IMG/VR virus record: IMGVR_UViG_3300042889_001272 | Location: 1-64,000 of that record | DNA length: 64,000 bases | Source of the DNA: a virus | Strand: one strand, 5' to 3' | In this document: one piece after another, positions 5,346 to 25,664 of the stretch | Layout: each line of letters begins with the position of its first letter | Numbering within the stretch: the stretch's first letter is position 1 | Program-made: the position numbers and the translations under genes | Notes under the pieces: model-generated | Told to the model about the DNA's origin: nothing | What the model saw: only the letters and a program-made list of their open reading frames with translations | Databases searched by the model: none

Positions 5346-5948
5346 ATGCCCTCAGTATTTTTAACCAGCGACACGCACTTTGGACACACAGGTGTATGCC
5401 GTTTTACCCGTAACGACGGAGTTACAAAACTTCGACCATGGGACTCAGCAGAGGAAATGGACGAGGAAATGATTCGTCGTTGGAATGATACAGTTAGACC
5501 CAACGATAAAGTTTATCACTTGGGCGATGTTGTTATCAACCGTAAATCATTGAAAACTCTTGCTCGTCTAAACGGCGACAAAGTATTAATCCGCGGCAAC
5601 CACGACATCTTTCGAGATGACGAGTATCGAGAATACTTTCGAGAACTACGTGCTTACCATGTTATGAACGGGATGATCCTTAGCCATATTCCCGTACACA
5701 GTGACAGCTTGGGTCGTTTTGGCACTAACATTCACGGACACACCCACGCAAATCGTGTACGTAAGGCCCGTGGAGTCGATGCACGTACCGGAGAAATCTT
5801 ATACAGTGACGAACCGGATGTACGCTATCATTGTGTTTGTGTAGAGCAAACTGACTTTGCTCCTATTTTATTTGAAGATGTTATCAAACGTATTGAAGCA
5901 GAAGGCGGAAGTGTGGGATTTAAAAACGGAAATGGTTCTATAATGTGA
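5346..5948 (+). CDS. Calcineurin-like metallophosphoesterase (200 aa)
   Basis: The metal-binding motifs appear in order: SDTHFGH near the N-terminus, LGDVV, RGNHD, SHIPVH and HGHTH. This is a complete set for a two-metal phosphoesterase. The ribosome site AGGAG is good. It is the last gene of the phosphatase/kinase unit, and its end overlaps the convergent PP-loop gene by eleven bases. Likely substrates are phosphodiesters or nucleotides; which one cannot be told. Confidence 0.88.
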   Translation: MPSVFLTSDTHFGHTGVCRFTRNDGVTKLRPWDSAEEMDEEMIRRWNDTVRPNDKVYHLGDVVINRKSLKTLARLNGDKVLIRGNHDIFRDDEYREYFRELRAYHVMNGMILSHIPVHSDSLGRFGTNIHGHTHANRVRKARGVDARTGEILYSDEPDVRYHCVCVEQTDFAPILFEDVIKRIEAEGGSVGFKNGNGSIM

Positions 5949-7110
5949 TTGTAGTATTGCTAAAATCAGATATAGCACCAATCTTGTACACTAATCTAAA
6001 AACTTTAAATCCAGTGCGAGGACCATTTAAATAAATAGGATCTATTTCTTTTATAAAATTTCTAAAGTCACTTACAATAAGATCAAAAGTTCTAGTGTTA
6101 TTGTGCATTTTGTAAAACCAATCATCGTGTTCGCCTAAAAACATGCGTGTGGGCTTATGTCCTTGGAATACTTTTCGGTGAGTCTGAGGATATATGCATG
6201 GTATAATAGCTCTTTCATAGAAACTATGCCTGGTTCTAGATTGTTCCAAAGACTGTATTGGCAATCTAAAATCAAGCATCTTTTCTTTAGCAAAACGGTT
6301 CTCTGGCATGTCTATCCATTTGGCTAATACATGCGCTTGCTTCACTTGCATTTCTGGCATTTCTGGGGCAAAATAAAATAATACATTTTCTACATTTGGA
6401 TACTTGTCCTTGAATGGAGGGCGTTGCACATTTACTGTAAGATCAGACATCATCACATTGACAGTATTATCTGTATCGTAGAACAGATGCGGCTTATCAA
6501 TGCCATACACTATAGCAATCTTCTTACCTTGTTCAGCTAACTGTTTGATATGCAACTGTTTGTCTAAATCATATCTTGCTCCGCTACTAGGATGTATCCA
6601 TTCGCCGCATCTAAAAATCCAGTCATCTGTTTCATAATTTAGTAATGTTTCAAAATAGTCGTTGATGGTGATTTTTACATCAGGATGCTTGCTGTGAATT
6701 TCGTGCATCAATGGCATCTGTGCCAGCATTGTTTCACTCATTGTATTACCAGCACTGGTATCTTTGTTGGTTTCAGTCCACTGTGATAAGCCACTGATAG
6801 GAGCACTGGCTACTACTTCATCAACTAATATACCGTTGTTCAAAAAGCTCCATATCACATTGGTGCTATCACCACCACCACTGCACAGGATCACTACATA
6901 ATCATATTGATCCCTGATCTGCTGTGCTCTAAGTTTGTAATACTGATCGAGACTGAGTTCCGGTTCAGTAGTCCAATCAGTGCGGCTATATATCTCATCA
7001 TTAAAATGCCATTCTATTTCTTCTTTAGTTAGACTCGCGTCAAGCACGGCAGCTAATTTATCAGAAAATACTTTATTTCCTACGGTGTAATATCCGGTGT
7101 TTGTTTTCAT
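5938..7110 (-). CDS. PP-loop ATPase, asparagine-synthase-like (390 aa)
   Basis: The pyrophosphatase loop CSGGGDS (SGGGDS at 77-82) defines an N-type ATP-pyrophosphatase. Such enzymes adenylate a carboxylate or a base and then transfer nitrogen. There is no N-terminal glutaminase domain, so it is not a full asparagine synthetase. It is the largest of four PP-loop genes in this island. The ATG overlaps the TAG stop of the ATP-grasp gene, so the two are probably translated together. Possibly an amide ligase of an unknown pathway. Confidence 0.75.
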   Translation of the reverse strand: MKTNTGYYTVGNKVFSDKLAAVLDASLTKEEIEWHFNDEIYSRTDWTTEPELSLDQYYKLRAQQIRDQYDYVVILCSGGGDSTNVIWSFLNNGILVDEVVASAPISGLSQWTETNKDTSAGNTMSETMLAQMPLMHEIHSKHPDVKITINDYFETLLNYETDDWIFRCGEWIHPSSGARYDLDKQLHIKQLAEQGKKIAIVYGIDKPHLFYDTDNTVNVMMSDLTVNVQRPPFKDKYPNVENVLFYFAPEMPEMQVKQAHVLAKWIDMPENRFAKEKMLDFRLPIQSLEQSRTRHSFYERAIIPCIYPQTHRKVFQGHKPTRMFLGEHDDWFYKMHNNTRTFDLIVSDFRNFIKEIDPIYLNGPRTGFKVFRLVYKIGAISDFSNTTITL

Positions 7111-8378
7111 TCTAAGTAACCTATGTCTTTTCGGTAAGTAAAGTTGTACATTTCAATATTTTCTAAAAACTTGTAAATTCTATCACTTGCTTCCATTCTT
7201 GTTGGTGCAGAACTAGTTATGACACTATTTAAAAGTTTCCTATCTTTATTAAAACTTATATGTATGTCAGGCAATTCCGGCCATAATTGAGGATTGTGGT
7301 GCGGCTCCAACTCTGCAGATCCGTACATGGCCTGAATATTTACGATATTATGATAATCAGAGTTTACGATTCGTAGACATACGGCTTGCTGATCATTATT
7401 TGACACTGGATCTATTTTTGCGCCAGTTGCGGCTTGGTATAACATATTTGAAATACTACACTTGCTGTCAAATGTCATGGCAATTGATTGAAATTCAGGG
7501 TCGCCTGGTCGGACGTTAATTTCAATCACATATACTTTGCCTTCCAAATCCTCCATAATGCCCAGATACAGAATCCCCACATAAGGAGTACCTTGTGATT
7601 TTAAGTAATTTAAAATAGTATCCGCATACTGATGCACTATGGGGTTAATATTAACTGGGGAATAACAACCCATGCTTGCAGTGTTGCTACCTGTGTCGCC
7701 TTCTCCGAACTTTTTATAATCTCTTGCAGAACCGAGATACTCCCAAGAATTCTCATTGCACAGTATGTGATAGGAATACTCACGTTTCCCGGTTATGAAT
7801 TCTTCTACTAGAAAATGCTGATCCAAGAACTGGCCGAACCCTTTCATATACCTGTTCTGCCCAAAAGATTGCAAATTTTCAAATTCTTTATTCACGTTAT
7901 CGTCGGTTATGATGACAGTCTGTAATCCTGCACGCCAGTCTCTTTCAAATTTTAATACCCATGGTCTGGGTATATTAAAAAATACTTCGAACAGTTTACT
8001 TTTATTATATACTCTGGATTTTGCAGTTGGAATATTCAGCTTTTGAAGTAAAGTCTTGCCATGAGCTTTACTCCATTCTAAGAATGATAAATCATAGCTC
8101 GGAGAGCAAGAAGGAATATTTTTTTCTTTTAGGAAATTCTGAAGACGTTGATTTTGTAGATAATTTATAGTAGTCAACCACACCAAATCCACTGGTGTAG
8201 TAGTCAGAAGGTCTATGATTTCGTCCACTGATTTTAGATCCAATGTGGAGTATCTTAATGAAGGTTGTATTGCAGGATTCGCTGTAATATGATAGATATG
8301 TTCTACTTCGTTTTCTTCTAATAATTTTTTAGAAAAAAAGTGTACCCCTGCGTGTGATCCAAATATTGCAATTTTCAT
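7107..8378 (-). CDS. PurD-like ATP-grasp ligase (423 aa)
   Basis: The layout follows phosphoribosylamine-glycine ligase: an N-terminal Rossmann-like segment (IAIFGSHAG), an ATP-grasp core (WVLKFERDWRAG), the segment ARDYKKFGEGDTGSNT..MG, and the metal/ATP motif EINVRPGDPE. These match PurD hallmarks, and 423 aa is the family length. PurD joins glycine to phosphoribosylamine using ATP. Here it sits with PP-loop ligases rather than other purine genes, so a different amine/carboxylate ligation is possible. It is preceded by a perfect palindrome (8385-8416). Confidence 0.85.
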   Translation of the reverse strand: MKIAIFGSHAGVHFFSKKLLEENEVEHIYHITANPAIQPSLRYSTLDLKSVDEIIDLLTTTPVDLVWLTTINYLQNQRLQNFLKEKNIPSCSPSYDLSFLEWSKAHGKTLLQKLNIPTAKSRVYNKSKLFEVFFNIPRPWVLKFERDWRAGLQTVIITDDNVNKEFENLQSFGQNRYMKGFGQFLDQHFLVEEFITGKREYSYHILCNENSWEYLGSARDYKKFGEGDTGSNTASMGCYSPVNINPIVHQYADTILNYLKSQGTPYVGILYLGIMEDLEGKVYVIEINVRPGDPEFQSIAMTFDSKCSISNMLYQAATGAKIDPVSNNDQQAVCLRIVNSDYHNIVNIQAMYGSAELEPHHNPQLWPELPDIHISFNKDRKLLNSVITSSAPTRMEASDRIYKFLENIEMYNFTYRKDIGYLE

Positions 8379-8384
8379 AATGTT

Positions 8385-8416
8385 TATAAACGTGTTGGCC
8401 GGCCAACACGTTTATA
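8385..8416. repeat. Perfect 32-bp palindrome
   Basis: TATAAACGTGTTGGCC is followed directly by its exact reverse complement, with no loop bases. It lies in the 64-bp gap upstream of the PurD-like gene and downstream of the 98-aa gene. It could be a protein-binding operator, a terminator/processing hairpin, or a cruciform. The minus-strand TATAAACA inside it, seven bases before the ATG at 8378, resembles a late box. Confidence 0.9.
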
Positions 8417-8442
8417 CAAGGCCCGGGTTTTTAAATAAGATA

Positions 8443-8739
8443 TTATTCGCCTAATAATTCAACGGTGTTTGTGATACCATTTGATTCATTGTGTCTTATT
8501 CGAGCTACGCTATTAGCGTTTGTCGAGCTCAGTCCTTTAATTTCAAGATAAGCAGCTTCGTCTCGAAATACATAGTTTCTAATAATAGAGTTGGCATTGA
8601 GTTTAGTTTTACTAACGCTCAATAAACCCGGCAAACTTTTAAACCAAGACGCCCATGCGGCATGACCCGCAGGATTTGCATCGCTAAACCATGCCGCATT
8701 GGCTGGCTTTACTGTTGTTACTCTTACTTTATATGACAT
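8443..8739 (-). CDS. Hypothetical protein (98 aa)
   Basis: A soluble 98-residue protein rich in Ala, Asn and Trp, with alternating hydrophobic segments suggesting a small alpha/beta fold. Size and pattern would fit a dimeric ABM-type barrel, but no signature supports this. An AAAGGAG site precedes the ATG, and a GATAAATA box lies further upstream (around 8750). It is placed between the cupin and the ATP-grasp gene. Confidence 0.65.
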   Translation of the reverse strand: MSYKVRVTTVKPANAAWFSDANPAGHAAWASWFKSLPGLLSVSKTKLNANSIIRNYVFRDEAAYLEIKGLSSTNANSVARIRHNESNGITNTVELLGE

Positions 8740-8761
8740 AAATGTCTCCTTTGATATATTA

Positions 8762-9418
8762 TTATTTATCTAAGTACGTTCTATTTAGCATAGTATGATT
8801 GTGATCCGTAGGTCCCCAGTCGCCGTCTGGGTGAAAGGCAATAACGGTCATACTACTATCAGTAGTACAGAAACGATGTCTTTCTTGTTCAGTTAAACAA
8901 AAGCTAATGCCAGTAACAAGCTCGTCTTCCTTTAAGTTGCCACTATCGCCGTGATGACTAATACCTTTACCGTCTATGACACAGCCTAATCGGATGCTGG
9001 GATGAGTGTGATAAGACTGTGTGATGCCCGGCGGAAAGAACAATAGATTCAAACTAGCGTCTCCCAGCCTAGCAGGATATACCAGTAAACTATCACTACA
9101 ACCGTCAATATAAGTTAATCTGCCCTTGGATTCTACCCAGCCCATAGTATCTGGTACGATGTATCCTAGTCTAACGATTACAAATAGTTTGTCAACGACG
9201 TCGACACTAACAGAGTCTCTTACGCCTAATCCGAAATATTGCCCTTTTTCCAGTGTATGTTTTTTGCCATCAATTGTGATTGTGGCTGTGCCGTAGCTGT
9301 AACCATACACTGAGCAGAATTTACAGAAATCTGGGAACGTGAATTGCTGATTTTCAAACATGTAGCCAGCTGATGGGTACATACTATTGTACAATTCTAA
9401 TTTTTTTCCATCTATCAT
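8762..9418 (-). CDS. Cupin-type protein (218 aa)
   Basis: The second half contains a cupin-like metal site: SYHTHPSIRLGCVIDGKG has the HxH..G spacing of cupin motif 1, and a later ERHRF histidine fits motif 2. The first half (IDGKKHTLEKGQYF) reads as a degenerate first barrel. Cupins here could act as an isomerase, dioxygenase or small-ligand sensor. It lies in the PP-loop/ATP-grasp gene run on the minus strand. Confidence 0.7.
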   Translation of the reverse strand: MIDGKKLELYNSMYPSAGYMFENQQFTFPDFCKFCSVYGYSYGTATITIDGKKHTLEKGQYFGLGVRDSVSVDVVDKLFVIVRLGYIVPDTMGWVESKGRLTYIDGCSDSLLVYPARLGDASLNLLFFPPGITQSYHTHPSIRLGCVIDGKGISHHGDSGNLKEDELVTGISFCLTEQERHRFCTTDSSMTVIAFHPDGDWGPTDHNHTMLNRTYLDK

Positions 9419-9438
9419 TGTTGTATAAGCCTTTTTTG

Positions 9439-10350
9439 TTAAACAATATTTAGTTCTAAAAACCTTTTTGTAACACCGGTCTGTGATTTAAGGTGTGCTA
9501 TTAATTCTTTCCACGGAATAAAACACTGACGTTCTTTACGTACAGTACGAACTTCTTTGTACAGCCAATCAATGTTTTCATAGCCACTGAACTTTGGGAA
9601 ATATACCAGATCTTCTCTCCAGTGTTTGGCATACAGCATAGGTTTGATATAATATTCATAGCGCAATACATCATTAATTTTCATGTTATATAACTTAAAT
9701 CCGTTGCCATCGTAATAAACCCAACTGTCTAAAAAGTAATGAAACAAGTCATCATCGATACTGCTGAGGAAATATTCACTGCTATCTCCGAACATGACAA
9801 TCTTACCAGTACGCTCTATTGCATTAAGCGCACGATATCTAGCAATCTCCGGATCATAATAACTTTGATACACATAGTGATTGCCATCTTTTTTATTGGT
9901 TATTAACCACGGATCGTGTAGCACTTGTATTATATCATAGTCCTTGGGTAATTCACTGACAAATATGTGTTGAATGCAATGATTGGCATGTGCATCTAGT
10001 TCGGGCTTCAATGCTTCTATTTCATCTCTGCGAGTGTTGGGATTTATGTTTACAACATTGGCAGTAAATCCCCACTTCTTTTCCAGCATCTTTAAGTTTT
10101 CGTATTCATTTTCGTTGAAGCCATCTAATCTAAGAAAGCTACATTCAAGTGGAATACCCTGCTTTAGAAAACTTACCAGTGCTATTTGACTGTCTAAACC
10201 AGAACTTAGACACAGCATTATTTTGCCGGGATTGTTCAGATAAATGTCACGAGCACGTCTGTCTGATTCTTCTTTTAAATTACCAGCGGGTCTAGTACAG
10301 CTGGTGTGTTCTACGTAGAACTTATTATTCTCATCAAAACCCCAATGCAT
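9439..10350 (-). CDS. PP-loop ATPase, asparagine-synthase-like (303 aa)
   Basis: The PP-loop reads SSGLDS (49-54) after a short N-terminal region. The family uses this loop to bind ATP pyrophosphate during substrate adenylation. No glutaminase domain and no QueC-type C-terminal cysteine cluster are present. It is two bases from the next PP-loop gene upstream, in the same orientation, so the pair is probably one transcript. Confidence 0.75.
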   Translation of the reverse strand: MHWGFDENNKFYVEHTSCTRPAGNLKEESDRRARDIYLNNPGKIMLCLSSGLDSQIALVSFLKQGIPLECSFLRLDGFNENEYENLKMLEKKWGFTANVVNINPNTRRDEIEALKPELDAHANHCIQHIFVSELPKDYDIIQVLHDPWLITNKKDGNHYVYQSYYDPEIARYRALNAIERTGKIVMFGDSSEYFLSSIDDDLFHYFLDSWVYYDGNGFKLYNMKINDVLRYEYYIKPMLYAKHWREDLVYFPKFSGYENIDWLYKEVRTVRKERQCFIPWKELIAHLKSQTGVTKRFLELNIV

Positions 10351-10352
10351 TG

Positions 10353-11375
10353 TTATCCTTGTATTGGTTGTTTAGTAAATCTGTAAACACCGTTGTCTTC
10401 GTAGATAAAGTCAAATGTATCTTTATAACGTAGCAATGCTGGCAAGCTAGGGTGCTTGGTTTTGTATTTAAAATATTGCAAGTCACCATCTACTTGATAG
10501 ATAAACTTCTTCATGATACCTTTATATTCGCCCCAGCTGGTTCCTTTGAAGTAATGACCTTCTTGTAGACTCCATTGTTGGAATGTATCTGTATTAAAGA
10601 AATGCTTTAAGTTTTTAATTAGTTGATTGCCCACTGCTTCGTTGTTGGCATGGCTTACTATGCGAAAGTTAACTGCCTGCCACTTTAAGTTAAAGTTCAA
10701 GTACCACAGCAAATCATGACAAGTAACCAATTCAACTGGGCTGGTTGAAATTTGTTGTTCTATAAATTCATATAGTTTTGGTTTTTCTTCTGTGGTTAAA
10801 TTTCTAGCCATCCAATCAACTGCCATTTGCAATGGCTTGTGAACAGTGCTAAAGTCATTGAAATAATCTACACAACTTTTCATAGTTAAACTGCCCACCA
10901 AGTTATCTGCCATTTCGCCTGTGATGATAACCTGATCCGGCTTGGGATCAGCAATAATCTTATCAGCTTGTACTACGCATGATATGAATCTATTTTTAAT
11001 AAATTTATTATAAAAGTTTGGATTTTCGCGGATACTGTCCATGTTCAATCCAATGGTCAATCTATTTTGTTTGTATAGTTCGTCGGCAATGCCAAGGTCA
11101 ACCATTAATGCAAAAATAAATGTACTGTCGATGCCGCCACTCCATAACACATTAACATGCATATTATGATCTGTTAATTCTTTAATTCTAGCAATGCTGG
11201 TTGCCATGAAGTCCGGACACGGTGTATCAACACTGGGCATGGGAAACATATTAACGTAATCGAAATTAGGCCAACGATTTGCGGTTCTGTCCAACACACT
11301 GATAAGTGGGTTGATTGTTTTATGAAAGACTTGTTTTTCTTTCAATGCTATGGGATGATAATAAACTAGATTCAT
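10353..11375 (-). CDS. PP-loop ATPase, asparagine-synthase-like (340 aa)
   Basis: LWSGGIDSTF contains the canonical PP-loop (SGGIDS at 79-84). A later DNLVGS segment fits the second nucleotide-contacting region of asparagine-synthase domains. It is a stand-alone synthetase domain. Its ATG overlaps the end of the 180-aa gene by four bases (translational coupling). Substrate unknown; adjacent PP-loop paralogues suggest either several ligation steps or a hetero-oligomer. Confidence 0.78.
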   Translation of the reverse strand: MNLVYYHPIALKEKQVFHKTINPLISVLDRTANRWPNFDYVNMFPMPSVDTPCPDFMATSIARIKELTDHNMHVNVLWSGGIDSTFIFALMVDLGIADELYKQNRLTIGLNMDSIRENPNFYNKFIKNRFISCVVQADKIIADPKPDQVIITGEMADNLVGSLTMKSCVDYFNDFSTVHKPLQMAVDWMARNLTTEEKPKLYEFIEQQISTSPVELVTCHDLLWYLNFNLKWQAVNFRIVSHANNEAVGNQLIKNLKHFFNTDTFQQWSLQEGHYFKGTSWGEYKGIMKKFIYQVDGDLQYFKYKTKHPSLPALLRYKDTFDFIYEDNGVYRFTKQPIQG

Positions 11376-11914
11376 AATAAAATATTTGTAAAGAACAAGC
11401 GTAACATGAGTTCACGAGCATTGACGAAATCATCTGCATTTTTTGCATCGAGTATTGCGGATATAACCTGCGTTTTAATGTTATTTAAATTTTGCATTAA
11501 CTGCATTTTATTCTCGTATTGAATGCCTGCATCAATGGGTGCAGTTCCTGTAATAACACCCTGTGAAACTAGGTATTCATGTAATTCAATAATTGTAAAA
11601 TTAGAATTGCTTATTCCTAGATTCTCCATGCTGGCTTCTAATCTATAATATAACTCTGCAAAGAATTTTAATCTATGCCCTATAATTATAGATTCCCGGT
11701 TGACCTCGGCTGGACTTGTTGCATTAGTATTAACAGTGACACTGGTCCAACTATTTGTTTTTAACTGCATAGGGCAGGATATTGGCGTGTCTATGGTAAA
11801 TGTTCTAAGAGTATACCAAGGACGGTCTTGAATCGCCCAGTGCATTACTTCTTTAATCGAATGCTCGCCTATTACCCAATTATTACTGTCAAGTATTACT
11901 GTTCGCCATTGCAT
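11372..11914 (-). CDS. Hypothetical protein (180 aa)
   Basis: No recognised motif. The N-terminal half is predicted mixed alpha/beta with several tryptophans. The C-terminal half is helical (YENKMQLMQNLNNIKTQV), possibly a coiled coil. It overlaps the desaturase gene upstream by 26 bases and the PP-loop gene downstream by four, so it is embedded in the operon and probably acts in the same process. Confidence 0.7.
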   Translation of the reverse strand: MQWRTVILDSNNWVIGEHSIKEVMHWAIQDRPWYTLRTFTIDTPISCPMQLKTNSWTSVTVNTNATSPAEVNRESIIIGHRLKFFAELYYRLEASMENLGISNSNFTIIELHEYLVSQGVITGTAPIDAGIQYENKMQLMQNLNNIKTQVISAILDAKNADDFVNARELMLRLFFTNILL

Positions 11915-12734
11915 CTTTTCTTGCCTTAAATATTTTTTCTTTGCTGGCCCTAGTTGCTATTAATGGAACAAATAATAAACTAGGATCAAATTCATCTTTG
12001 CGTCCACTGACACTAGTGCCGAAATCATAGGAACTTGCTTTGGCATGATGGTTATTATGCCATGCTTGCCCCCATACAATTTTAGCCATAATCGATCTAT
12101 TGTTGCTGTCATCCTTGGTTTCGAAGTTTCTATACCCCTGTCCTTTTAAATGACATAACACATTTACTGCTGATTCTTGGTGCAGACTATACACTGCTGG
12201 AATTATAAACATAAACAATAATATTTGCCAATCTATTAGTCCGATGATTGCATAACTAATAAAGATAATTTTAATGTAGTTGTGGGCAAAAAACAAATGC
12301 ATGGGATCTTTGAGTAAATCAATGGCATACTTGGGATTAAAATAATTCCCCCAATCATGCAACCAAAAGTGATAAGCATACAATTTTCCTTTGTTGGGCG
12401 TGTGTGCGTCTTTTTCAGTGTCACTGAATCTATGATGACTGCCTCTATGAATTGCGGCCCAACCCAATGGACTTCCTTGCAAGCACAAACTTGCTGTCCA
12501 CAATGCAATGGGTTTGATTCCTGGTCGCAATTCCAAGGCACGATGGCTGACAATACGATGCAATGTCACAGCACTTCCGAACCCAGCAAGTAGAATCCAG
12601 CCCGCAAATAATAATAGTATTTGTTTTAATCCAAAATCAAAGTAAAAAGGAAATACAAATACGCCCAGCAATGCAACAATATGTGCAGGGTAAAGGACGT
12701 AGTAAAGGAAATTGTTAATTTTTGGTGTATTCAT
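11889..12734 (-). CDS. Membrane fatty-acyl desaturase-like protein (281 aa)
   Basis: Three histidine boxes of the acyl-CoA/acyl-lipid desaturase family are intact: HRIVSH, HRGSHH and HNNHH. Four hydrophobic segments flank them. These diiron enzymes insert a double bond into an acyl chain using O2 and reducing power, at the inner membrane. It is one of three such genes in the window (others at 35514 and 36290). It lies inside the oxygenase/PP-loop operon, between the 180-aa protein and an acetyltransferase-like gene. Confidence 0.88.
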   Translation of the reverse strand: MNTPKINNFLYYVLYPAHIVALLGVFVFPFYFDFGLKQILLLFAGWILLAGFGSAVTLHRIVSHRALELRPGIKPIALWTASLCLQGSPLGWAAIHRGSHHRFSDTEKDAHTPNKGKLYAYHFWLHDWGNYFNPKYAIDLLKDPMHLFFAHNYIKIIFISYAIIGLIDWQILLFMFIIPAVYSLHQESAVNVLCHLKGQGYRNFETKDDSNNRSIMAKIVWGQAWHNNHHAKASSYDFGTSVSGRKDEFDPSLLFVPLIATRASKEKIFKARKDAMANSNT

Positions 12735-12735
12735 A

Positions 12736-13350
12736 TTAAAGGAAATCTATGTCTCGCTCATCAAACTCAACTGAGCCCTCTGATGTACACAAACTCTTCG
12801 ACATGTACATACTGATATTTATATCGTAAGGAAACAATTTTCCGCCACTAAACTGTAAGTGATCCAACCATTTTGGCATTGTATTTGCTGCCACTCTGGC
12901 ATAAACATAGTGATGATATTTTTCTCTGGCACCAGTGAAAAGTTTTTGCCATGCATCAAACTTTTCTAATTTGCTGACAACAAACCATTGATAAAATCCA
13001 CTTTTTTCCTGATAATCAATAGCAAATTTTAAAAGTTCTTTTATAACCCTGATGCTATTGCCACCGCGATGTGCAGTCACAATAAAACTAAAAATCCAAG
13101 AAGGACTGTTGTCTAAACAACGTAGTCCTATAATAGCAATTAATTTTGAATCTTCATCAAAATATCCAAATGCTCTCATTTTATCAGAACCATAGACATT
13201 CTGCGGTAGCACAAAATATTTAAACACCTTTGAGTTTGTATTGTCTTCGAAAATGCCAGAAGCAGTATTAGTCATAGCAAACTTTTCTTCTGCCATGGCT
13301 TCAATCATACTCAAGTCTTCTTGTAATAATCTTCTTATATATATTGACAC
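12736..13350 (-). CDS. GNAT-like acetyltransferase (204 aa)
   Basis: The N-terminal IRRLLQEDLSMIEAMAEEKF and the central strand FSFIVTAHRGGNSIRVIKEL resemble GNAT motifs, in which the R-G-x-x-I turn contacts acetyl-CoA. Confidence is limited because the pyrophosphate loop is not a perfect R/Q-x-x-G-x-G/A. The start is GTG at 13350, overlapping the PP-loop gene upstream by 16 bases. Substrate unknown. Confidence 0.6.
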   Translation of the reverse strand: MSIYIRRLLQEDLSMIEAMAEEKFAMTNTASGIFEDNTNSKVFKYFVLPQNVYGSDKMRAFGYFDEDSKLIAIIGLRCLDNSPSWIFSFIVTAHRGGNSIRVIKELLKFAIDYQEKSGFYQWFVVSKLEKFDAWQKLFTGAREKYHHYVYARVAANTMPKWLDHLQFSGGKLFPYDINISMYMSKSLCTSEGSVEFDERDIDFL

Positions 13351-14258
13351 ACTGTTCCTTGATTTGTTAAAATATCTATCATATCATTGTAAGAAATATA
13401 AGCATTTCTTGGTTTGAATTGTAATGTTTGTTGTATCAATTCTGAATTCTTTTGATTTAAACCAGGTATATGATCACCGCTGACTGTTTTAACAAACTTG
13501 AAAGTATTTCCATCAAATAAGTTTGTAAAACCTCCTTGATAATAAATTAAATTCTTTAAACTGTTTAAAGAAATTTTTCCGCTGGTTTGTTTTTTCACTA
13601 ATTCCCGTATTACGGGAAGAGTTAAAAAACTATATATTAATTCTGGACTGTATGAGAAGAAATTGTTAATAACTTTATTCTCATTAAAACTATTAAACCG
13701 CTCAGGCCAAAAATCAAAATCTTCATTGCGAATATAGCTCCAAGATAAGTCTGGATTCACATCTCTTCGAAGATTTACTTTATCAACTAATAACACATCC
13801 TCATGTAGTTGCTCCATATAATATGCATGTAAAGTTTGAACAAAACTGTACGTTTGATATTTTTTTGCAGTATCTATCATGTGCTCGTTTACAAACGTTT
13901 CAAAATTCACGTCGACTAATTTAGGTATAATATTATATTTTTTACACTGTTTTACTGCAATCTCGGTGTCATGGGAATTTAATCTAATGGGAAATTTTAA
14001 AATATATACATTTGGAGTAATGCCGGCTTCAATAAACGAGCGTAAACAAATTTGACTTTCCCATCCGCCCGACAATGCAATGTATATGTTGGGATATTTT
14101 AAATGTATTTCTTTGGCAGCAATTATACATTCTTCTTTCAAAGTCAATTCCTGTCTAGTTTTCGAGCTAATCTTAAGGTTGAGAATCTCAAGAGCTGTTG
14201 TCCTAAATTTATTACCAACATCATCGCCATACCAATAGTCTAAATTTTTCATTATCAT
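13335..14258 (-). CDS. PP-loop ATPase-like protein with altered loop (307 aa)
   Basis: The loop reads ALSGGWES (SGGWES at 63-68): the usual Asp of SGGxDS is Glu. This is conservative and may still bind Mg-ATP, but it is unusual. Overall size and layout match the 303-aa paralogue at 9439. An ATG at 14252 is an alternative start. A minus-strand ATTAAATA near 14261-14268 may be a promoter. Confidence 0.7.
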   Translation of the reverse strand: MIMKNLDYWYGDDVGNKFRTTALEILNLKISSKTRQELTLKEECIIAAKEIHLKYPNIYIALSGGWESQICLRSFIEAGITPNVYILKFPIRLNSHDTEIAVKQCKKYNIIPKLVDVNFETFVNEHMIDTAKKYQTYSFVQTLHAYYMEQLHEDVLLVDKVNLRRDVNPDLSWSYIRNEDFDFWPERFNSFNENKVINNFFSYSPELIYSFLTLPVIRELVKKQTSGKISLNSLKNLIYYQGGFTNLFDGNTFKFVKTVSGDHIPGLNQKNSELIQQTLQFKPRNAYISYNDMIDILTNQGTVCQYI

Positions 14259-14263
14259 TGTAT

Positions 14264-14863
14264 TTAATTTATAATTCCACTTTGATTTACAATTACACGG
14301 TTTGTCATATTTCTAATCCATGTTTCGTTGCCTAGATTGGTTAAATGATGTACAGCAACATATTGGATACAGCCTTCTTGCTCGTCATATGTATGCCCAC
14401 AGACATTATATCTATTTGGTTTTATATTAAAGTCTAAATCACAATTAATTTTAATTAAATCGATGTATTGTTTAAATCCGATTAAGTTATATTCTCTGCT
14501 TATGAAGACAGCATCGAGACCGACTTCCTTGGCCTTGTTTATCTGCACAGGTAAACAATATGTGGAGTTTAAAAACTTTGCACCGCCAGTAAACTTACCA
14601 ATGCCTTTTATTCTATAATCAGGATGTATCCACATTCTACTGCTAAATCGTGCAATTCCTTGGCCCCAGCGACGCTCATTATAATGCAGGCCACTGAAGC
14701 AAATTATTTTGTTATTCTCAACTACCGCCGGGAAACTCAAAAATTCATTAAATTTAATATTAGTATAATTACTCTTAAGTCGATCATCGGTGCCACTGAT
14801 ATAATCAATGGTATCTTTCCATAGTTGATCTTGTGGAGCAACAACTAAATCAATGACTTGCAA
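14264..14863 (-). CDS. GNAT-like acetyltransferase (199 aa)
   Basis: The segment RMWIHPDYRIKGIGKF matches the GNAT acetyl-CoA loop (hydrophobic strand, H-P-x-Y-R, then K-G-I-G-K). The only usable start is TTG at 14863, one base after the stop of the TauD-like gene; the first in-frame ATG lies far inside the domain. The rare start may hold translation down or couple it to the upstream gene. Confidence 0.7.
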   Translation of the reverse strand: MQVIDLVVAPQDQLWKDTIDYISGTDDRLKSNYTNIKFNEFLSFPAVVENNKIICFSGLHYNERRWGQGIARFSSRMWIHPDYRIKGIGKFTGGAKFLNSTYCLPVQINKAKEVGLDAVFISREYNLIGFKQYIDLIKINCDLDFNIKPNRYNVCGHTYDEQEGCIQYVAVHHLTNLGNETWIRNMTNRVIVNQSGIIN

Positions 14864-14864
14864 T

Positions 14865-15761
14865 TTATTTCTGCCAGGAGTTGAAAATATTCATACGATA
14901 AAACTCTCTAGATTTAGTATGAAGTTCACTGTGCAATGCTGTTCTAGAATGAATCATATGCACATTATTCCAAATAGCAAAGTCTTGTTCATCCCATGTT
15001 AAATCGTAGATGTTTTCATCTTGAATTGTTTTTTCATGAAGCAAACTCACATAGTCAGCAGTACATGGAACTTCATCACGTTTGGCGCCAAATATCCAAC
15101 CATGCACAGTCCAACCATGCCAATGATGACTGTATTTTTTACCGCTGTTACTGAAGCTGGTGAACTGCAAATACTTTTCACCGTTGTATGGACTAACAGC
15201 AACTACAGGAAGATAAGTCAAGTGTGTGCCCGGTTCGTACCAACTTTGATACAACAGTTTCCAGTGTTCTGCTTCTGCTTGTTCTTCATCAGTCATATTT
15301 CTATAACCCCAGGCACGGTCAGCAAAACTAGTTTTGCCATAACGATTGTCTGGAATACTCACAGCATAAAAACTGCGTAATGGTGCTTGGTGACTTGGCC
15401 ACAACGGAATATCAACATGCCAGCTCATATCAGCATCACCAATGGCCTTTGCAGTACTGCCTACATTGCTGTAATGAGCATAGACTCTTCCACTGGCATC
15501 ATCTATAGGAAAACATTTTTCTTTTCCTACTTCGTAGTCTTCTCTAGTCCAGCCGCCTTGGCCAAAGCGTGTGCTAAAGTCCCAAAACTGTACATTATTA
15601 ATATTTTTCATACCTTTAATGACTAGTAATTTGTCTTGATATACCCATGCATCTAATTGTTCTTTGGGTATAGACATGGCTTCTTCATAACTGTCTACAT
15701 GAACAATTATGCCATAGTGCAGGGCTGTGCCGGCGCGAGATGTTAATTTTTCAGTACGCAT
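14865..15761 (-). CDS. TauD/TfdA-family 2OG dioxygenase (298 aa)
   Basis: This is the only member of the larger TauD/TfdA/AsnO type here. The iron motif is WHVD (H115/D117) and the distal histidine is in VHMIHSRTALH (H271), followed by arginines that would bind 2OG. The length of 298 aa is normal. TauD-type enzymes hydroxylate small molecules such as taurine, carnitine precursors or carrier-bound amino acids. Together with PP-loop and ATP-grasp ligases this suggests small-molecule tailoring. Confidence 0.85.
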   Translation of the reverse strand: MRTEKLTSRAGTALHYGIIVHVDSYEEAMSIPKEQLDAWVYQDKLLVIKGMKNINNVQFWDFSTRFGQGGWTREDYEVGKEKCFPIDDASGRVYAHYSNVGSTAKAIGDADMSWHVDIPLWPSHQAPLRSFYAVSIPDNRYGKTSFADRAWGYRNMTDEEQAEAEHWKLLYQSWYEPGTHLTYLPVVAVSPYNGEKYLQFTSFSNSGKKYSHHWHGWTVHGWIFGAKRDEVPCTADYVSLLHEKTIQDENIYDLTWDEQDFAIWNNVHMIHSRTALHSELHTKSREFYRMNIFNSWQK

Positions 15762-16359
15762 TTTTCTCTGATAACTTATTTAGGTAATCTGGAGCAAGAC
15801 TTGGATCGGCATATTCGTCTTTGCGTCTAACAAAAGGACTGTGCAAATCGTGGGGCATTAGGTAATTCTTTAAATCAAAGTCTAAAAATGTAAATGCGGC
15901 ACAGACAAAATCAGCACTGGAAAAGTATCTATTTCCTATTCTGTTGTTGATTCTATATATATTCCCAGGAGTAAGAATGCTAGTAGTGTTAAAATCGTTG
16001 GTTGCAATTTTAACTTGCCCTTTTAATGGAATCAAAAATAATTCACCGATTCTGTTTAAATATCTCGAATGCTGTGAACTATCTCCCATTAATGACTCTG
16101 GAGGCTGGCACAGCATGGTTTCATAAATTACCATATTTTTTAACAATGCATATTGTTGACTATAGATATAAGATCCAATGGCAGTGACATGTCTAATTAA
16201 ATTTACTGGCATCTTGGTAACAATTTGTATTTTATTATCTTTACCAATAATTGCCCTTTTATCGATCTCAGTACTGATCTGCGATTCGTGTTCTAAGATG
16301 TTATCTATAAAATATCTTGGAATAGTGTCTATGGTTTGTGTAAGGTCATTAAAGTACAT
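15751..16359 (-). CDS. Oxygenase paralogue with lost iron ligands (202 aa)
   Basis: The protein aligns by eye with the 193- and 207-aa genes next to it: the segment GNIYRINN and the preceding strand pattern are shared. However, the HxD position reads DSSQHSR and the distal histidine after RINN is missing (RIGNRYF). It is therefore probably not catalytically active as a dioxygenase; it may be a regulatory or structural partner of the neighbouring oxygenases. A good AGGAG site precedes the ATG. It overlaps both neighbours. Confidence 0.65.
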   Translation of the reverse strand: MYFNDLTQTIDTIPRYFIDNILEHESQISTEIDKRAIIGKDNKIQIVTKMPVNLIRHVTAIGSYIYSQQYALLKNMVIYETMLCQPPESLMGDSSQHSRYLNRIGELFLIPLKGQVKIATNDFNTTSILTPGNIYRINNRIGNRYFSSADFVCAAFTFLDFDLKNYLMPHDLHSPFVRRKDEYADPSLAPDYLNKLSEKNAY

Positions 16360-16930
16360 ATTTTTCTCCTACGGCGTCTGCTAGTATCACAGACACAATA
16401 TCTTGATGTGATTTAAATTTATTATACAATCTTTTTGGCATCATATCAAAGTATATTGCTCGTCTATTATTAATATTATTATTTTTTAATCCATGTGTTA
16501 TGCTGGTGTTTAATCTATAAACATTGCCGTATTCTAATAGATAATTAACTTTCATATTAGATGTGGCCCAATGCCAATTTAAAACGTCAGGAACATCGTT
16601 GACTAATACTATCACTCTTTTTGCCATACGATGAAACATCATGCGGTCGGTGTGATCCACAACTTCACTTTTGCCTTTGAGATAACTCACACTCCAGCCA
16701 AATAATTCATCTTCAGGAAACATAGCTGTTACTGCATTAATTATTTCTGTGCCTGCAATGTCTTCTAATTTGTAATTTTCGGGATTGTGATAGCTGTCTA
16801 AACGCAGCCATTCTCCGTGCTTGAAGTTATATGCTTGTTTCTGTTCAAATAGTTCTATGTTAGAATTAACTTGTTCTAGTAAAGTTTTATTTACTTGCCC
16901 TATTAATTGATAATACCCAGAAAAAAACAT
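16349..16930 (-). CDS. 2OG-Fe(II) oxygenase-like protein, GN(V/I)YR subgroup (193 aa)
   Basis: DHTDR provides H93/D95, GNVYRLNTSITHG provides the distal H146, and arginines follow at 156-157. It forms a trio with the genes at 15751 and 16930, sharing the R..R-x-V/L-x-P/V and GNxYR(I/L)N signatures that recall aspartyl/asparaginyl beta-hydroxylase-like folds. Its ATG overlaps the last base of the upstream gene's stop. Confidence 0.75.
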   Translation of the reverse strand: MFFSGYYQLIGQVNKTLLEQVNSNIELFEQKQAYNFKHGEWLRLDSYHNPENYKLEDIAGTEIINAVTAMFPEDELFGWSVSYLKGKSEVVDHTDRMMFHRMAKRVIVLVNDVPDVLNWHWATSNMKVNYLLEYGNVYRLNTSITHGLKNNNINNRRAIYFDMMPKRLYNKFKSHQDIVSVILADAVGEKYVL

Positions 16931-17553
16931 TATAGTTGCACCTTTAAACGTTTTTCAAATTCTTGATTAACTCCAAATATTGTAAGTGCGGCAAGCCTAT
17001 CAGGATGATGGTTGAATTTTGTTTTTAGTCTTGCATCGAATGTATCTATTAAAATGTTATATCTATCAGTATCCTCTAAATTAAGAGCACTATGTATAAC
17101 AGCGTTATTAATTCTATAAATGTTGCCAAATTTCAATGGGTATATAACTTTTTCATCATCGTAGTAGCCATAGTTATAATTCACATCACTGTGTGTCAAC
17201 GGTACCAAGTATCTATTTGTTATTCTGTGTAAGAATCTGCCATCTGTGTGTTCATCCAAGACTTGTTTGGGTTTCAACATACTCACACTAACTGAGTTCA
17301 GTGGATCAATTTTGTATGTTTGTTGAATGTATTCAATGACTGTGAGAATAGCAGAATACAATGGCATTCTGCGCGAATCTGTTGGCGCTTGCATGAAATC
17401 CAGTCGCAACCAACTGTGTTCTTTGTTTACCAAATCTCTGTCTTTATAATTATAGTCATCGTCTGTTAATGCCAGTGAAATTTGTTCATTGACTGCATTT
17501 AGTAAATTATCAGGTACTGTTCCGAGAATTTGATACGCGGCATTAAAGTTCAT
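16930..17553 (-). CDS. 2OG-Fe(II) oxygenase-like protein, GN(V/I)YR subgroup (207 aa)
   Basis: EHTDG gives H102/D104, and GNIYRINNAVIHS gives the distal H154 with R164 downstream. This is the first gene of a long minus-strand operon: a TATAAATA box (17559-17566) ends six bases before its ATG and no Shine-Dalgarno is present. The following genes are tightly spaced down to about 10.35 kb, so this box probably drives the oxygenase/PP-loop/desaturase run. Confidence 0.78.
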   Translation of the reverse strand: MNFNAAYQILGTVPDNLLNAVNEQISLALTDDDYNYKDRDLVNKEHSWLRLDFMQAPTDSRRMPLYSAILTVIEYIQQTYKIDPLNSVSVSMLKPKQVLDEHTDGRFLHRITNRYLVPLTHSDVNYNYGYYDDEKVIYPLKFGNIYRINNAVIHSALNLEDTDRYNILIDTFDARLKTKFNHHPDRLAALTIFGVNQEFEKRLKVQL

Positions 17554-17558
17554 ATAAG

Positions 17559-17566
17559 TATTTATA
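17559..17566 (-). promoter_or_regulatory. T4-late-type box TATAAATA
   Basis: An exact match on the minus strand, ending 6 nt before the ATG at 17553. It is divergent with the plus-strand box at 17582. Confidence 0.65.
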
Positions 17567-22000: not shown

Positions 22001-23446
22001 TTAAATTGAATTTATTGTTATCAGGTACTTTTTTATAAATTCTTGTTTACGTCTGCGAAATTCGTCGCTGTTGTTGATTCGATCCTGATGCTGTGACATA
22101 ATTTCTTCATTGGTATATCCCAGTGTATGTAATGCTATGTGATTGAATCCTGCAAAGTTTAGACGTTTTCTCTGAGGATTTAATTTTTCAGCATAGGCCA
22201 GCACAGACTTTCGTTTCCAGGTGTCATTATACCATTGATTGTTTGAATCAAATTTAAAACCGTACTTGTCTGCATTGCGTTCGAATTCGCTGATATAACT
22301 TCGTTCATGTAGATTATTAGTGACCTGTAAGCCAAAGAATATCACATTTATCATGTGCTGATTCGCCCACAGTAAGCTACCTTGAAGATCATCTGCGGTT
22401 TCGCCTGGCAGTCCCACTATCAGTCCGCAATGAGCAGATATTTTATTTTTCCATATTTTATGAACTAGCTCTGGAACAAACTCACGGGCGCTTTTACCAC
22501 TCCAGCCCTTGCCTACAATTTTACTAGCAGTAGGATGTAGACTCTCTATGCCAAAGAATGCGCCGCGCAGTCCAGTCTCTGCCAGCTTGTCTGCCATGCC
22601 CTTGAATCTATGCACTAAGTCTGCTCTAATATAGGCTGCATATTCTATATTAAACGGCAAGCTTCTTGTGAGTTCTAAAAAGCTGTCTATCTTATATTCA
22701 CTGTCATTGAATGTGTCGTCCAGCATGATATAACTGGTAGTCTGCCACTTATTATAGTTGTTTTCTAGATATTTTTTTACAGAATCATTAGATTTTAAAT
22801 AATCAAATTTCTTTTTACCCAAATGGGGATACGCACAAAAACTACATTTGAAGATACAGCCTCGAGCAGTTTCCATAGGCAATACTTCGCCAGTCTGTAC
22901 ACAGTCTTCATCCTGCCACATAAAGTCACAACTTTGTATCTGGTAATTTTTGTTTATGGGATTTCTATAAGTCAGCTTATTCGTAGTGGGATTTATTTCA
23001 CGTTCAGGTTCTGATGCTTTTTTTGTCCAGTAATCCAGAACTTCCGCAAAAGTATCTTCACTTTCTCCTATGAACACACAGTCTATGTCTTCTATTCGTT
23101 TTCTCATATAACTACTGTGCGCTCCACCTAGTATTACTTTGATATCTGGATATTCTGCTTTGATTAGTTTTACCGCTTGATAGATGTTGGGAGGAATACC
23201 GTTGTCATATGTATAATAATGTTGTGACTCGTCGAACCAAAATGTACTACTCAGTGCCAAGCATATAGTATCAGCAGTGACAAAATTTTTAAATAGCTCC
23301 AGTAACTGAGTTGCAGTCCACTCTTGGCAAAAATCTATAACTCGACTGTTGTATCCTCGTTTTTTTAACTGATGTTTTAGTAGATAGGGACCTAACGCAC
23401 GTTGCGGAATAACTGAATAAATACTGTTTAGAAATATAACGTGCAT
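22001..23446 (-). CDS. B12-binding-domain radical SAM protein (481 aa)
   Basis: The N-terminal 140 residues resemble a cobalamin-binding Rossmann domain (ILGGAHSSY, FIGESED), though the DxHxxG base-on motif is not seen. The radical SAM motif is C197-x3-C201-x2-C204 in METARGCIFKCSFC, followed by elements of a TIM-barrel core (DDTFND, FFGIESLHP, GLIVGLPGET). Such proteins methylate unactivated carbons or rearrange rings. It is a paralogue of the 494-aa gene at 24180 with cysteines at identical positions. A late box ends five bases before the ATG. Confidence 0.87.
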   Translation of the reverse strand: MHVIFLNSIYSVIPQRALGPYLLKHQLKKRGYNSRVIDFCQEWTATQLLELFKNFVTADTICLALSSTFWFDESQHYYTYDNGIPPNIYQAVKLIKAEYPDIKVILGGAHSSYMRKRIEDIDCVFIGESEDTFAEVLDYWTKKASEPEREINPTTNKLTYRNPINKNYQIQSCDFMWQDEDCVQTGEVLPMETARGCIFKCSFCAYPHLGKKKFDYLKSNDSVKKYLENNYNKWQTTSYIMLDDTFNDSEYKIDSFLELTRSLPFNIEYAAYIRADLVHRFKGMADKLAETGLRGAFFGIESLHPTASKIVGKGWSGKSAREFVPELVHKIWKNKISAHCGLIVGLPGETADDLQGSLLWANQHMINVIFFGLQVTNNLHERSYISEFERNADKYGFKFDSNNQWYNDTWKRKSVLAYAEKLNPQRKRLNFAGFNHIALHTLGYTNEEIMSQHQDRINNSDEFRRRKQEFIKKYLITINSI

Positions 23447-23450
23447 GCCT

Positions 23451-23458
23451 TATTTATA
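23451..23458 (-). promoter_or_regulatory. T4-late-type box TATAAATA
   Basis: An exact match on the minus strand, ending 5 nt before the ATG at 23446. Confidence 0.65.
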
Positions 23459-23461
23459 GTG

Positions 23462-23469
23462 GATAAATA
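23462..23469 (+). promoter_or_regulatory. Late-type box GATAAATA
   Basis: A 7/8 match to TATAAATA ending 6 nt before the ATG at 23475, back-to-back with the minus-strand box at 23451. Confidence 0.6.
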
Positions 23470-23474
23470 TATTC

Positions 23475-24185
23475 ATGGAAACTTTAAATTATTGCTATCA
23501 CCAAAGTGACTTTAAATTCAGCGCAGAAGCTGAAAAATGGATACGTGATACTTATCACTATCCTTATTTAAATAAATTTGTAGCCTACGACAAGTATTCT
23601 ACTGCTAACAGCGAAAAAAATATTTTAAATAAAAAAATTACATGGCAAGGCACTAAGGCTTTGGAAGAACTTCGAGACTATTTGTCAAGTTGGGGGATTG
23701 CACGTGATTACGTTGGTAGTGAACTATGTGGCCCTGACGTTTTTATCAGTAACAGTCAGATACATGCACAACCTGGCTGGCCGCACATAGACGGACATAA
23801 ATGGGACAATATCAATCCCAATAAACGATTACCAGTATTAACACGGTTTAATGTGGTTATAGAATACAATCCAGATGATCCCATGCATTGGTGGGAGGAT
23901 GTAACTCCTGGGCATCCAATGGTTGGGCAAATCGATCATAATGTCAATGGCCATCGTAACAATCAATATCTTGCTATTAAAGGCGCAAACCATAAAGAAA
24001 AATGGAATAACCTAGGAACACCCAGTACGACAAAACACGGACTATATAAAAATCATTGCTCTGCATTTTTGCGGACAGACTGTGCTCATTGTCTAGATAT
24101 AAATAAACCAGGATTTAGATTGGTTGTTTCACTGGCATTAGACTGTACCCTAGAAGAATTATACAAACGTCGAGGCTTATTATAA
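23475..24185 (+). CDS. 2OG-Fe(II) oxygenase-like protein, MHWW subgroup (236 aa)
   Basis: GWPHIDGHKW gives H104/D106, RFNVVIEYNPDDPMHWW is the subgroup signature, and FLRTDCAHCLD gives the distal histidine with a later arginine. A longer insertion separates the two halves (residues 140-185). It is placed between the two B12-type radical SAM genes, which supports a joint role. Leaderless-type late promoter. Confidence 0.77.
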   Translation: METLNYCYHQSDFKFSAEAEKWIRDTYHYPYLNKFVAYDKYSTANSEKNILNKKITWQGTKALEELRDYLSSWGIARDYVGSELCGPDVFISNSQIHAQPGWPHIDGHKWDNINPNKRLPVLTRFNVVIEYNPDDPMHWWEDVTPGHPMVGQIDHNVNGHRNNQYLAIKGANHKEKWNNLGTPSTTKHGLYKNHCSAFLRTDCAHCLDINKPGFRLVVSLALDCTLEELYKRRGLL

Positions 24186-25664
24186 ATTCAATAGCAGTTG
24201 TTTATAGTCATCAACATATTTTGCTTTACGCTTTAAAAAAGTACTATCTGTTAAAAAACCGTTGTGTGTGAGTTGACTACTTGTAATTTTCCATAGTTCT
24301 TCATCAGTATATCCAAATGCTCTGAGTTGAATATGAAACCAACAGCTGATACGTTTCAGTTTACGTTTGTAGTTTAAATCTTCCATGGCGAATTTTTGAG
24401 CTTTGTGATGTGTCCATAAGTCATTGTACCACCAACCCTTGTCGTCAAATTTATAACCGTACTGTTCTGCATTACGTTCAAACTCACTGTAGAAAGCTAC
24501 TCCGTCCATACTGCCTGCCATTAAACTTGCAGGACTACTGATTCCCAAGCCAAGCCAGAATGTCATGATATCGTTGTCATTGACCCAAGTCAATGTATCA
24601 CGTAGACTGTCGGCATCTTCGCCCGGTAAACCTGCAATAAACCCAGTAGTAACATTAACTCGATCTTTCCATATGTCGTGTAACAGATGCGGGATATATT
24701 CTTTGGCACTTTTACCACTCCATCCCTTTCCCACAGCCTGACTGGCAACAGGGTTTAAACTTTCTAAGCCAAAGAAACATGCTTCTAATCCAGTCTCTTG
24801 TAATTTTTCCGCCATACCATTAAACCTATGAACTAGGTCAGCACGTATATAAGCAACATATCCAATTTTGAATGGTAATGTTCTTGTCATGTCTAACAAT
24901 GTGTCTATTTTATATTCACTGTCATTAAACGTATCATCTAACATAATATAATGTGTAGTTCCCCAATTCTCGTAATTATGCATTAAATGATTACGGATAT
25001 GATCAATGGGTTTTAAGTAATCCATTTTCTTTTTACCCAAATGCGGATAACTACAAAATTTGCATTTAAAAATACAACCGCGAGCAGTTTCCATAGGCAA
25101 AGGTTCTCCGTGAACAATAGCATCTTGATTGCTCCACATAAAATCACATTTGCTTATATCATAATTTTTGTTTATACATTGACTGTAATACGGTTTGTTA
25201 ACTGTGTCATTTGTTTTCATTGGAGGCTCTTCTGTACCTTTGGTCCAATGATCTAATAACTCTATGAATAAATCTTCTGCTTCACCAATTACTAATGCAT
25301 CGACATGATCTACCTTGCTACCTACATTACGTATACCAGCTCCACCTAATACGATTTTAATATGTGGGAACTCTGCTTTAATTCTACGGCTAGCGATGTC
25401 CAGATTAGGAGGCATGCCTCCGTTGTTATCCCATATTTTTTGTTCGATATCACGCCAGAACGTTGTACTAAAACCCAAGCATATTGTAGTGTCATCGATG
25501 AAATGTTTAATCAATTCATACATTGTGTCTGCTGTAAATTCTTGACAATGATCTATCACTTGACAAGAATAATTATTTTTTTCAAGTACGTGTCTAAGCA
25601 AATATGGCCCAAGACTTCTACTGGGCATGATATCATAAATGCCGTTGATTAAAATTACATTCAT
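24180..25664 (-). CDS. B12-binding-domain radical SAM protein (494 aa)
   Basis: A paralogue of the protein encoded at 22001: the same N-terminal pattern (LGPYLLRH, VLGGAG), the same METARGCIFKC..C motif (C197, C201, C204) and the same CDFMW and YPHLGKKK segments. Differences cluster in the C-terminal third (about 360-480), which often shapes the substrate pocket, so the two copies may act on different substrates. It follows the oxygenase genes at 26287 and 26910 with a four-base overlap. Confidence 0.87.
   Translation of the reverse strand: MNVILINGIYDIMPSRSLGPYLLRHVLEKNNYSCQVIDHCQEFTADTMYELIKHFIDDTTICLGFSTTFWRDIEQKIWDNNGGMPPNLDIASRRIKAEFPHIKIVLGGAGIRNVGSKVDHVDALVIGEAEDLFIELLDHWTKGTEEPPMKTNDTVNKPYYSQCINKNYDISKCDFMWSNQDAIVHGEPLPMETARGCIFKCKFCSYPHLGKKKMDYLKPIDHIRNHLMHNYENWGTTHYIMLDDTFNDSEYKIDTLLDMTRTLPFKIGYVAYIRADLVHRFNGMAEKLQETGLEACFFGLESLNPVASQAVGKGWSGKSAKEYIPHLLHDIWKDRVNVTTGFIAGLPGEDADSLRDTLTWVNDNDIMTFWLGLGISSPASLMAGSMDGVAFYSEFERNAEQYGYKFDDKGWWYNDLWTHHKAQKFAMEDLNYKRKLKRISCWFHIQLRAFGYTDEELWKITSSQLTHNGFLTDSTFLKRKAKYVDDYKQLLLNL

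Follow-up and report, generated by a model that had tools for sequence, protein, structure and literature searches.

The first 64,000 bases (hereafter the window) of the linear virus record IMGVR_UViG_3300042889_001272 (235,561 bp) carry on the minus strand an operon that combines four stand-alone PP-loop ATPases (PP1 to PP4), a PurD-like ATP-grasp ligase, a membrane fatty-acid desaturase, a cupin and GNAT-like acyltransferases. This operon is a real syntenic unit, and we put at about even the chance that it encodes a phage-exclusive, late-expressed biosynthetic pathway leading to an acylated, amide-linked, peptide-like product. As to substrates, order of steps and class of product, we propose that PP1 to PP4 would activate carboxylates with ATP as acyl-adenylates and then hand them to amines, as asparagine or beta-lactam synthetases do, and that the PurD-like ligase would form another amide from an amino acid via an acyl-phosphate. 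The organic acids would be supplied in many phages by TctC, DctP and TctA proteins, the desaturase and the GNAT enzymes would produce an unsaturated acyl group and transfer it, and oxygenases and radical-SAM enzymes would decorate the product, which may be free or attached to a lipid or a protein. A bolder version, which we hold to be quite unlikely, is a complete virus-invented natural-product pathway, in which the protein u180 (see below) as scaffold, or a free precursor, would be built up by the four PP-loop ligases and a re-purposed PurD, with a desaturated acyl chain and phage-encoded carboxylate uptake, into a lipopeptide-like product serving infection or signalling between infected cells.

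A syntenic unit conserved among phage contigs

The ten open reading frames (ORFs) that an initial annotation of this sequence had placed between 5938 and 14258 are all present on the minus strand, with ends that mostly overlap or nearly so, and its inventory of four PP-loop ATPases, a PurD-like ATP-grasp protein, a cupin, a desaturase and a GNAT is borne out by ORFs, Pfam matches, profiles and folds. The group thus delimited is real but too short: the true unit comprises 15 minus-strand genes, from 17553 to 5938, with a largest gap of 64 bp. Its order, from the head, is three small related proteins, TauD, GNAT2, PP4, GNAT', desaturase, u180, PP3, PP2, cupin, a 98-aa protein, PurD-like ligase and PP1.

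Relatives were collected by alignment-seeded scans of IMG/VR. One of these was seeded with the desaturase (11889-12734) and its loci were not chosen for PP-loops; it returned 80 loci, 45 of them non-redundant, and PP4 (13335-14258) lay within about 6 kb of the desaturase in 43/45 and within three genes in 42. The arrangement PP4-x-desaturase on one strand occurred 51 times among the 80 loci, the profile of x matching the window's GNAT' (12736-13350, 204 aa) at 2.3e-47, and desaturase-y-PP3 occurred 12 times, the profile of y matching u180 (11372-11914) at 7.1e-40. One related locus, L182, repeats the order of the window, GNAT2-PP4-GNAT'-desaturase-u180-PP3-PP2. A PP4-seeded scan gave five loci only, mostly near copies. 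Conservation of this kind over dozens of independent contigs rules out chance.

PP1 (5938-7110), the last gene of the operon, has its own set of partners, which we evaluated in 68 non-redundant PP1 loci against 500 within-locus shuffles of gene order. A TctC gene adjoins PP1 in 29 of the 68 loci (shuffled mean 7.4, maximum 16) and is coupled to it (no more than 30 bp apart) in 20; PP2 adjoins it in 14 (shuffled mean 3.1) of the 20 loci that have PP2, and a nitronate-monooxygenase-like protein does so in nine (shuffled mean 2.1). Five non-redundant PP1 loci carry the PurD-like ligase (7107-8378), whose gene the start of PP1 overlaps by 4 bp, and each of them has it next to PP1 (shuffled mean 0.3). 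Relatives of the ligase were retrieved with a two-sequence alignment, a single-sequence scan having given nothing. The PurD-like gene precedes PP1 in the window, L134, L147 and L149 and follows it in L150 and L151, the pair turns up in two distinct clades of PP1, and one PurD-like match (L148) stands without a PP1 partner. The initial annotation had let its proposal depend on these genes staying together in relatives, which they strongly do, as the desaturase-PP4 and PurD-like/PP1 counts and the order in L182 attest.

The TctC partner of PP1, which lies outside the window, scores over the cut-off for the TctC/Bug solute-binding family (PF03401), with signal peptides judged by eye. Related loci also hold a TctA permease (PF01970, 3e-51) and DctP (PF03480), neither of which was found in the window's own genome record. 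The same genome contains two further PP1 copies at 132-134.6 kb, the nearer of which overlaps a TctC gene. Since TctC, DctP and TctA are transport proteins, and since IMG/VR abounds in phage desaturases (342 relatives), the operon might represent ordinary auxiliary metabolism, that is, organic-acid scavenging, a PurD for purine synthesis and desaturases for membrane fluidity, with no joint product. We regard this as very unlikely, because the PurD signature is lost (see below), the virus-only PP1 is tightly coupled to its partners and the ligases are syntenic with the desaturase. Two side observations concern the neighbourhood of PP1: a cytochrome P450 (PF00067, 1.8e-13) lies between two PP1 genes in a viral contig (L006:7485-8672), and two adjoining B12-binding radical SAM proteins in the window (22001-25664), close paralogues of each other (1e-170), have relatives near PP1 in several contigs.

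The initial annotation had also suggested that the product is made late in infection. The sequence TATAAATA, which we take to be the core of the T4-type late promoter, a motif known from T4, occurs on the minus strand at 17559-17566, just 5 bp upstream of the gene that heads the operon. The window contains 13 such boxes, when 8.5 are expected by chance, and eight of the 13 precede the start of a correctly oriented ORF by no more than ~25 bp; seven of these eight lie in the island that harbours the operon. These promoter matches support, but do not prove, late transcription of the operon.

With more than 100 viral relatives in IMG/VR, PP1 had none in 84,980 prokaryote genomes, according to two alignment-based scans that required exact short peptide patterns, and its close folds in BFVD are uncharacterised proteins of uncultured Caudovirales. 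As far as such searches reach, its distribution appears to be virus-only. For PP1, PP2, PP4 and the desaturase, tblastn found nothing convincing in 50,697 GenBank phage records, and ordinary phage surveys would thus miss the system; the GenBank phage matches of the PurD-like protein and of the desaturase were set aside, as their source records appear to be bacterial contigs deposited under a phage label. PP3 gave weak tblastn matches, in Pseudomonas phage Cygsa01 only. This cultured phage has two PP3-like PP-loop genes, annotated as MnmA, beside tail-fibre and baseplate genes (12031-14180), and might serve as a model for laboratory work.

Several points weigh against a single amide-forming pathway. 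The modules are mosaic, and many phages carry one half only, PP4-desaturase or PP1-TctC, so that a single pathway is not certain and the halves may be separable; some 125 kb separate the PurD-like/PP1 pair from the PP1-TctC copy in the present genome. PP1 was found close by in 22/22 loci of a TctC-seeded scan, a figure that gives no unbiased estimate because the query was drawn from PP1 neighbours. The exact-pattern scans of cellular genomes covered PP1 only, leaving out PP2 to PP4, and could miss distant relatives. Finally, the GNAT matches are weak, and so are the Foldseek matches of the PP-loop proteins (TM about 0.2-0.36), which include the sulfurtransferases LarE and MnmA.

The PP-loop proteins and the PurD-like ligase

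The four PP-loop proteins bear the motifs SGGGDS (PP1), SSGLDS (PP2, 9439-10350), SGGIDS (PP3, 10353-11375) and SGGWES (PP4, where E replaces the usual D). In Pfam, PHROGs and NCBIfam they scored below cut-off or not at all, the NCBIfam search covering three of them, without PP4. Three are detectably paralogous (PP1 versus PP4, 8.8e-6; PP2 versus PP4, 2.8e-7), and profile searches reach NadE (1e-4), QueC (1.4e-4, with the PP4 profile) and GMP synthetase (3e-4). The AlphaFold model of PP1 (pLDDT 92, pTM 0.92) has the fold of the N-type ATP pyrophosphatases (AANH), and Foldseek matched it, with low TM-scores, to MnmA, LarE, carbapenam and beta-lactam synthetases, GMP synthetase and AsnB; PP4 gave the same picture. 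An SGGxDS-type PP-loop is conserved in all four proteins and the fold is HUP-like, with the loop at the end of strand 1. Paralogy, profile matches and predicted structure place PP1 to PP4 in the N-type ATP pyrophosphatase superfamily.

Among 134 PP1 sequences, S77, G79, D81, S82, G203 and K206 are conserved at 94-100%, and no column holds Cys at 50%. PP4 retains one Cys (C105), and those of PP2 and PP3 are partly conserved. The lack of a conserved Cys in PP1 makes amide-type carboxylate activation a better fit than thiolation; established knowledge of the superfamily then favours, by analogy, an acyl-adenylate attacked by an amine as the chemistry of PP1. Three closer assignments found no support. 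PP1 is probably not a sulfur-transferring enzyme of the MnmA, LarE or TtuA type, again for want of a conserved Cys, though PP2 to PP4, with their fully or partly conserved Cys, may be; PP3, which has an AsnB-like TGEMAD loop, scores 12.6 bits for the asparagine synthetase B family (PF00733; cut-off 21) and has no glutaminase domain, and we claim only that it works like these enzymes; and nothing in the whole genome record exceeds the QueC cut-off (PF06508).

A role in nucleic-acid modification, with the PP-loop enzymes acting like QueC, TilS or MnmA on 7-deazaguanine precursors or phage tRNAs, nevertheless has to be weighed. The genome encodes FolE, QueD and QueE without QueC, at 115-127 kb (L047) and, in the window, at 46553-47059; tRNA arrays flank the island, the PP4 profile reaches QueC, and QueC-family enzymes are able to conjugate deazaguanine to proteins (PMC11996544, PMC13279940). 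Such a role, which we hold to be highly doubtful, fits badly with a fatty-acid desaturase and secreted carboxylate-binding proteins, as well as with the absence from PP1 of a conserved Cys for thiolation. Moreover, QueD occurs in only 4/37 PP1 records and in none of the PP1 contigs of 197, 142, 133 and 128 kb, which may be fragments. A linkage of PP4 to QueD was not supported either, as record G004 has PP4 and no QueD. DNA modification is thus disfavoured as the role of the operon, and of the initial annotation's proposal the conserved operon of putative carboxylate-amine ligases stands, whereas its link to a modified nucleoside is not supported so far. The genome's own 7-deazaguanine pathway probably stops before preQ0 or uses the QueC of the host; a possible DpdA-like gene, with no family match, lies at L047:366-1928.

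The protein encoded at 7107-8378 is an ATP-grasp protein of the carboxylate-amine ligase type, with the conserved catalytic E/D/N/R residues. It matches PF01071 at 1.7e-26 (93.7 bits, cut-off 27) and solved PurD structures over its full length at about 1e-25, with about 23% identity to PurD. When the phage family is compared with a bacterial PurD, the ATP-grasp residues and R-x-GDPE are kept and the N-terminal GGREHA is lost, in 6/6 phage sequences. Because of this loss, and because its score for the equivalog TIGR00877 is far under the cut-off (150.7 versus 288 bits), it is probably not a glycinamide ribonucleotide synthetase and is best called a PurD-derived ligase.

Acyl-chain genes, u180 and the remainder of the operon

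Pfam confirms the desaturase (PF00487), whose His boxes are 100% conserved in 36 phage relatives, and the cupin (PF07883; 8762-9418), whose H137, H139 and H181 are conserved at 100%; GNAT is recovered weakly (PF13420 for GNAT'). FeeM/LuxI-type N-acyltransferases, which have a GNAT fold and draw on acyl-ACP, are a possible comparison for these proteins. The cupin adjoins PP1 in L005 and L007 and lies near PP3-PP2-PP1 in L170-L175. This gene content may also be read as envelope remodelling, in which desaturases, GNATs and 2-oxoglutarate (2OG)-dependent or Rieske oxygenases would alter host lipids or lipopolysaccharide, and the PP-loop enzymes would amidate lipid-linked or sugar groups, for example against superinfection. 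There are three membrane desaturase copies in the window, fatty-acid hydroxylases near PP4 and a PF05118-type hydroxylase in L010, and, at 120-124 kb of this genome, PP4 stands beside sugar-nucleotide and cytidylyltransferase genes. We nevertheless find this explanation unlikely, as membrane lipids are not usual targets of PP-loop enzymes and as it leaves unexplained the coupling of PP1 to TctC/DctP and to the PurD-like ligase.

The best-conserved part of u180, a protein with no relative in the PDB, is its C-terminus, which reads exactly N-[IMV]-L-[LM] in 16 u180-type proteins (relatives include L182:6809-7357, L191:6758-7345 and L202:6714-7415) and possibly serves as a substrate or docking tail. 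Likewise, 32 of 4,564 ORFs end in GGN[IL], and all 32 belong to the GNAT'-like family (e.g., L010:17399-17998 and L184:7723-8241). These tails raise the prospect of protein modification, with u180 or GNAT'-like proteins as ribosomal scaffolds whose C-termini would be activated and conjugated by the PP-loop and ATP-grasp enzymes, in the manner of ribosomally synthesized and post-translationally modified peptides. Little probability attaches to this in our view: the window's GNAT' has no GGN[IL] and ends in DERDIDFL, u180 occurs mostly in the slot from desaturase to PP3, and the conserved tails may have a docking or structural role, the end of u180 in the window overlapping the start codon of PP3.

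The other genes of the operon, all on the minus strand, include the acyltransferase-like GNAT2 (14264-14863), which precedes PP4, and a TauD/TfdA-type 2OG-Fe(II) dioxygenase (14865-15761; PF02668, 1.7e-16). At the head, the three related small proteins (15751-17553; listed at 15751, 16349 and 16930) have no Pfam match and are probably 2OG-Fe(II) oxygenases as well. The 98-aa protein (8443-8739) has no match in Pfam, PHROG or NCBIfam. Between it and the PurD-like gene, the operon's only sizeable gap is occupied by a perfect 32-bp palindrome (8385-8416), found once in the window and possibly forming a stem-loop. The surrounding region (2476-33394) contains unusually many small related 2OG-like genes in paralogue groups, mostly without Pfam match.

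Significance and comparison with known systems

Phage metabolic genes are usually viewed as borrowed host enzymes. PP1 recurs in more than 100 uncultivated phage contigs, in conserved operons with genes for acyl chemistry, oxidation and carboxylate uptake; because searches found this signature enzyme in viruses only, the chemistry of these phages may be their own and not borrowed from their hosts. If the amide-forming interpretation is true, viruses would produce small molecules absent from the repertoire of their hosts, adding a new chemical layer to the phage-host interaction. PP1 with the PurD-like ligase, PP1 with TctC, and PP4 with the desaturase are testable starting pairs. The pairing of PP1 with carboxylate-binding proteins and its apparent restriction to viruses were beyond the reach of the initial annotation. 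Its remark that no known pathway fits exactly still holds: a search of families, structures and open-access literature gave no account of an operon or pathway of this composition, the only related mention being a tctA domain match in SUP05 viruses (PMC4164917).

The phage PP-loop proteins resemble AsnB and the beta-lactam and carbapenam synthetases in their SGGxDS loop, HUP-type fold, conserved Lys, TGExAD-like loop (PP3) and Foldseek matches, but differ from them by the absence of a glutaminase domain and of a confident family match, by weak TM-scores and by the virus-specific N-terminal region of PP1. With NadE, QueC, LarE and MnmA they share a PP-loop core, matched by profiles and folds; the match is confined to this nucleotide-binding core, falls below the QueC cut-off and comes, in PP1, without conserved Cys. 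Among PP-loop enzymes, the QueC family includes the deazaguanylation enzymes of the CBASS and Qat defences, which are able to join a nucleobase to a protein (PMC11996544, PMC13279940), whereas here no QueC match exceeds the cut-off and the 7-deazaguanine genes do not track PP1. The phage ligase matches PurD over its full ATP-grasp length and keeps its catalytic core residues; it differs in its low identity, in the loss of GGREHA and in being coupled to PP1 instead of purine genes. The TctC/TctA and tripartite ATP-independent periplasmic (TRAP) DctP proteins look like ordinary transport components, with Pfam matches over cut-off and signal peptides apparent by eye, except that they are phage-encoded and coupled to a PP-loop enzyme. 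The setting recalls phage auxiliary islands rich in 2OG-Fe(II) oxygenases, with their many small 2OG-like genes, tRNAs and late-type promoters, from which the operon is set apart by a core ligase without detected cellular relatives and by its conserved multi-gene synteny. On this evidence, the enzymes add new members to known superfamilies, whereas the conserved phage-borne system that they make up is new in kind.

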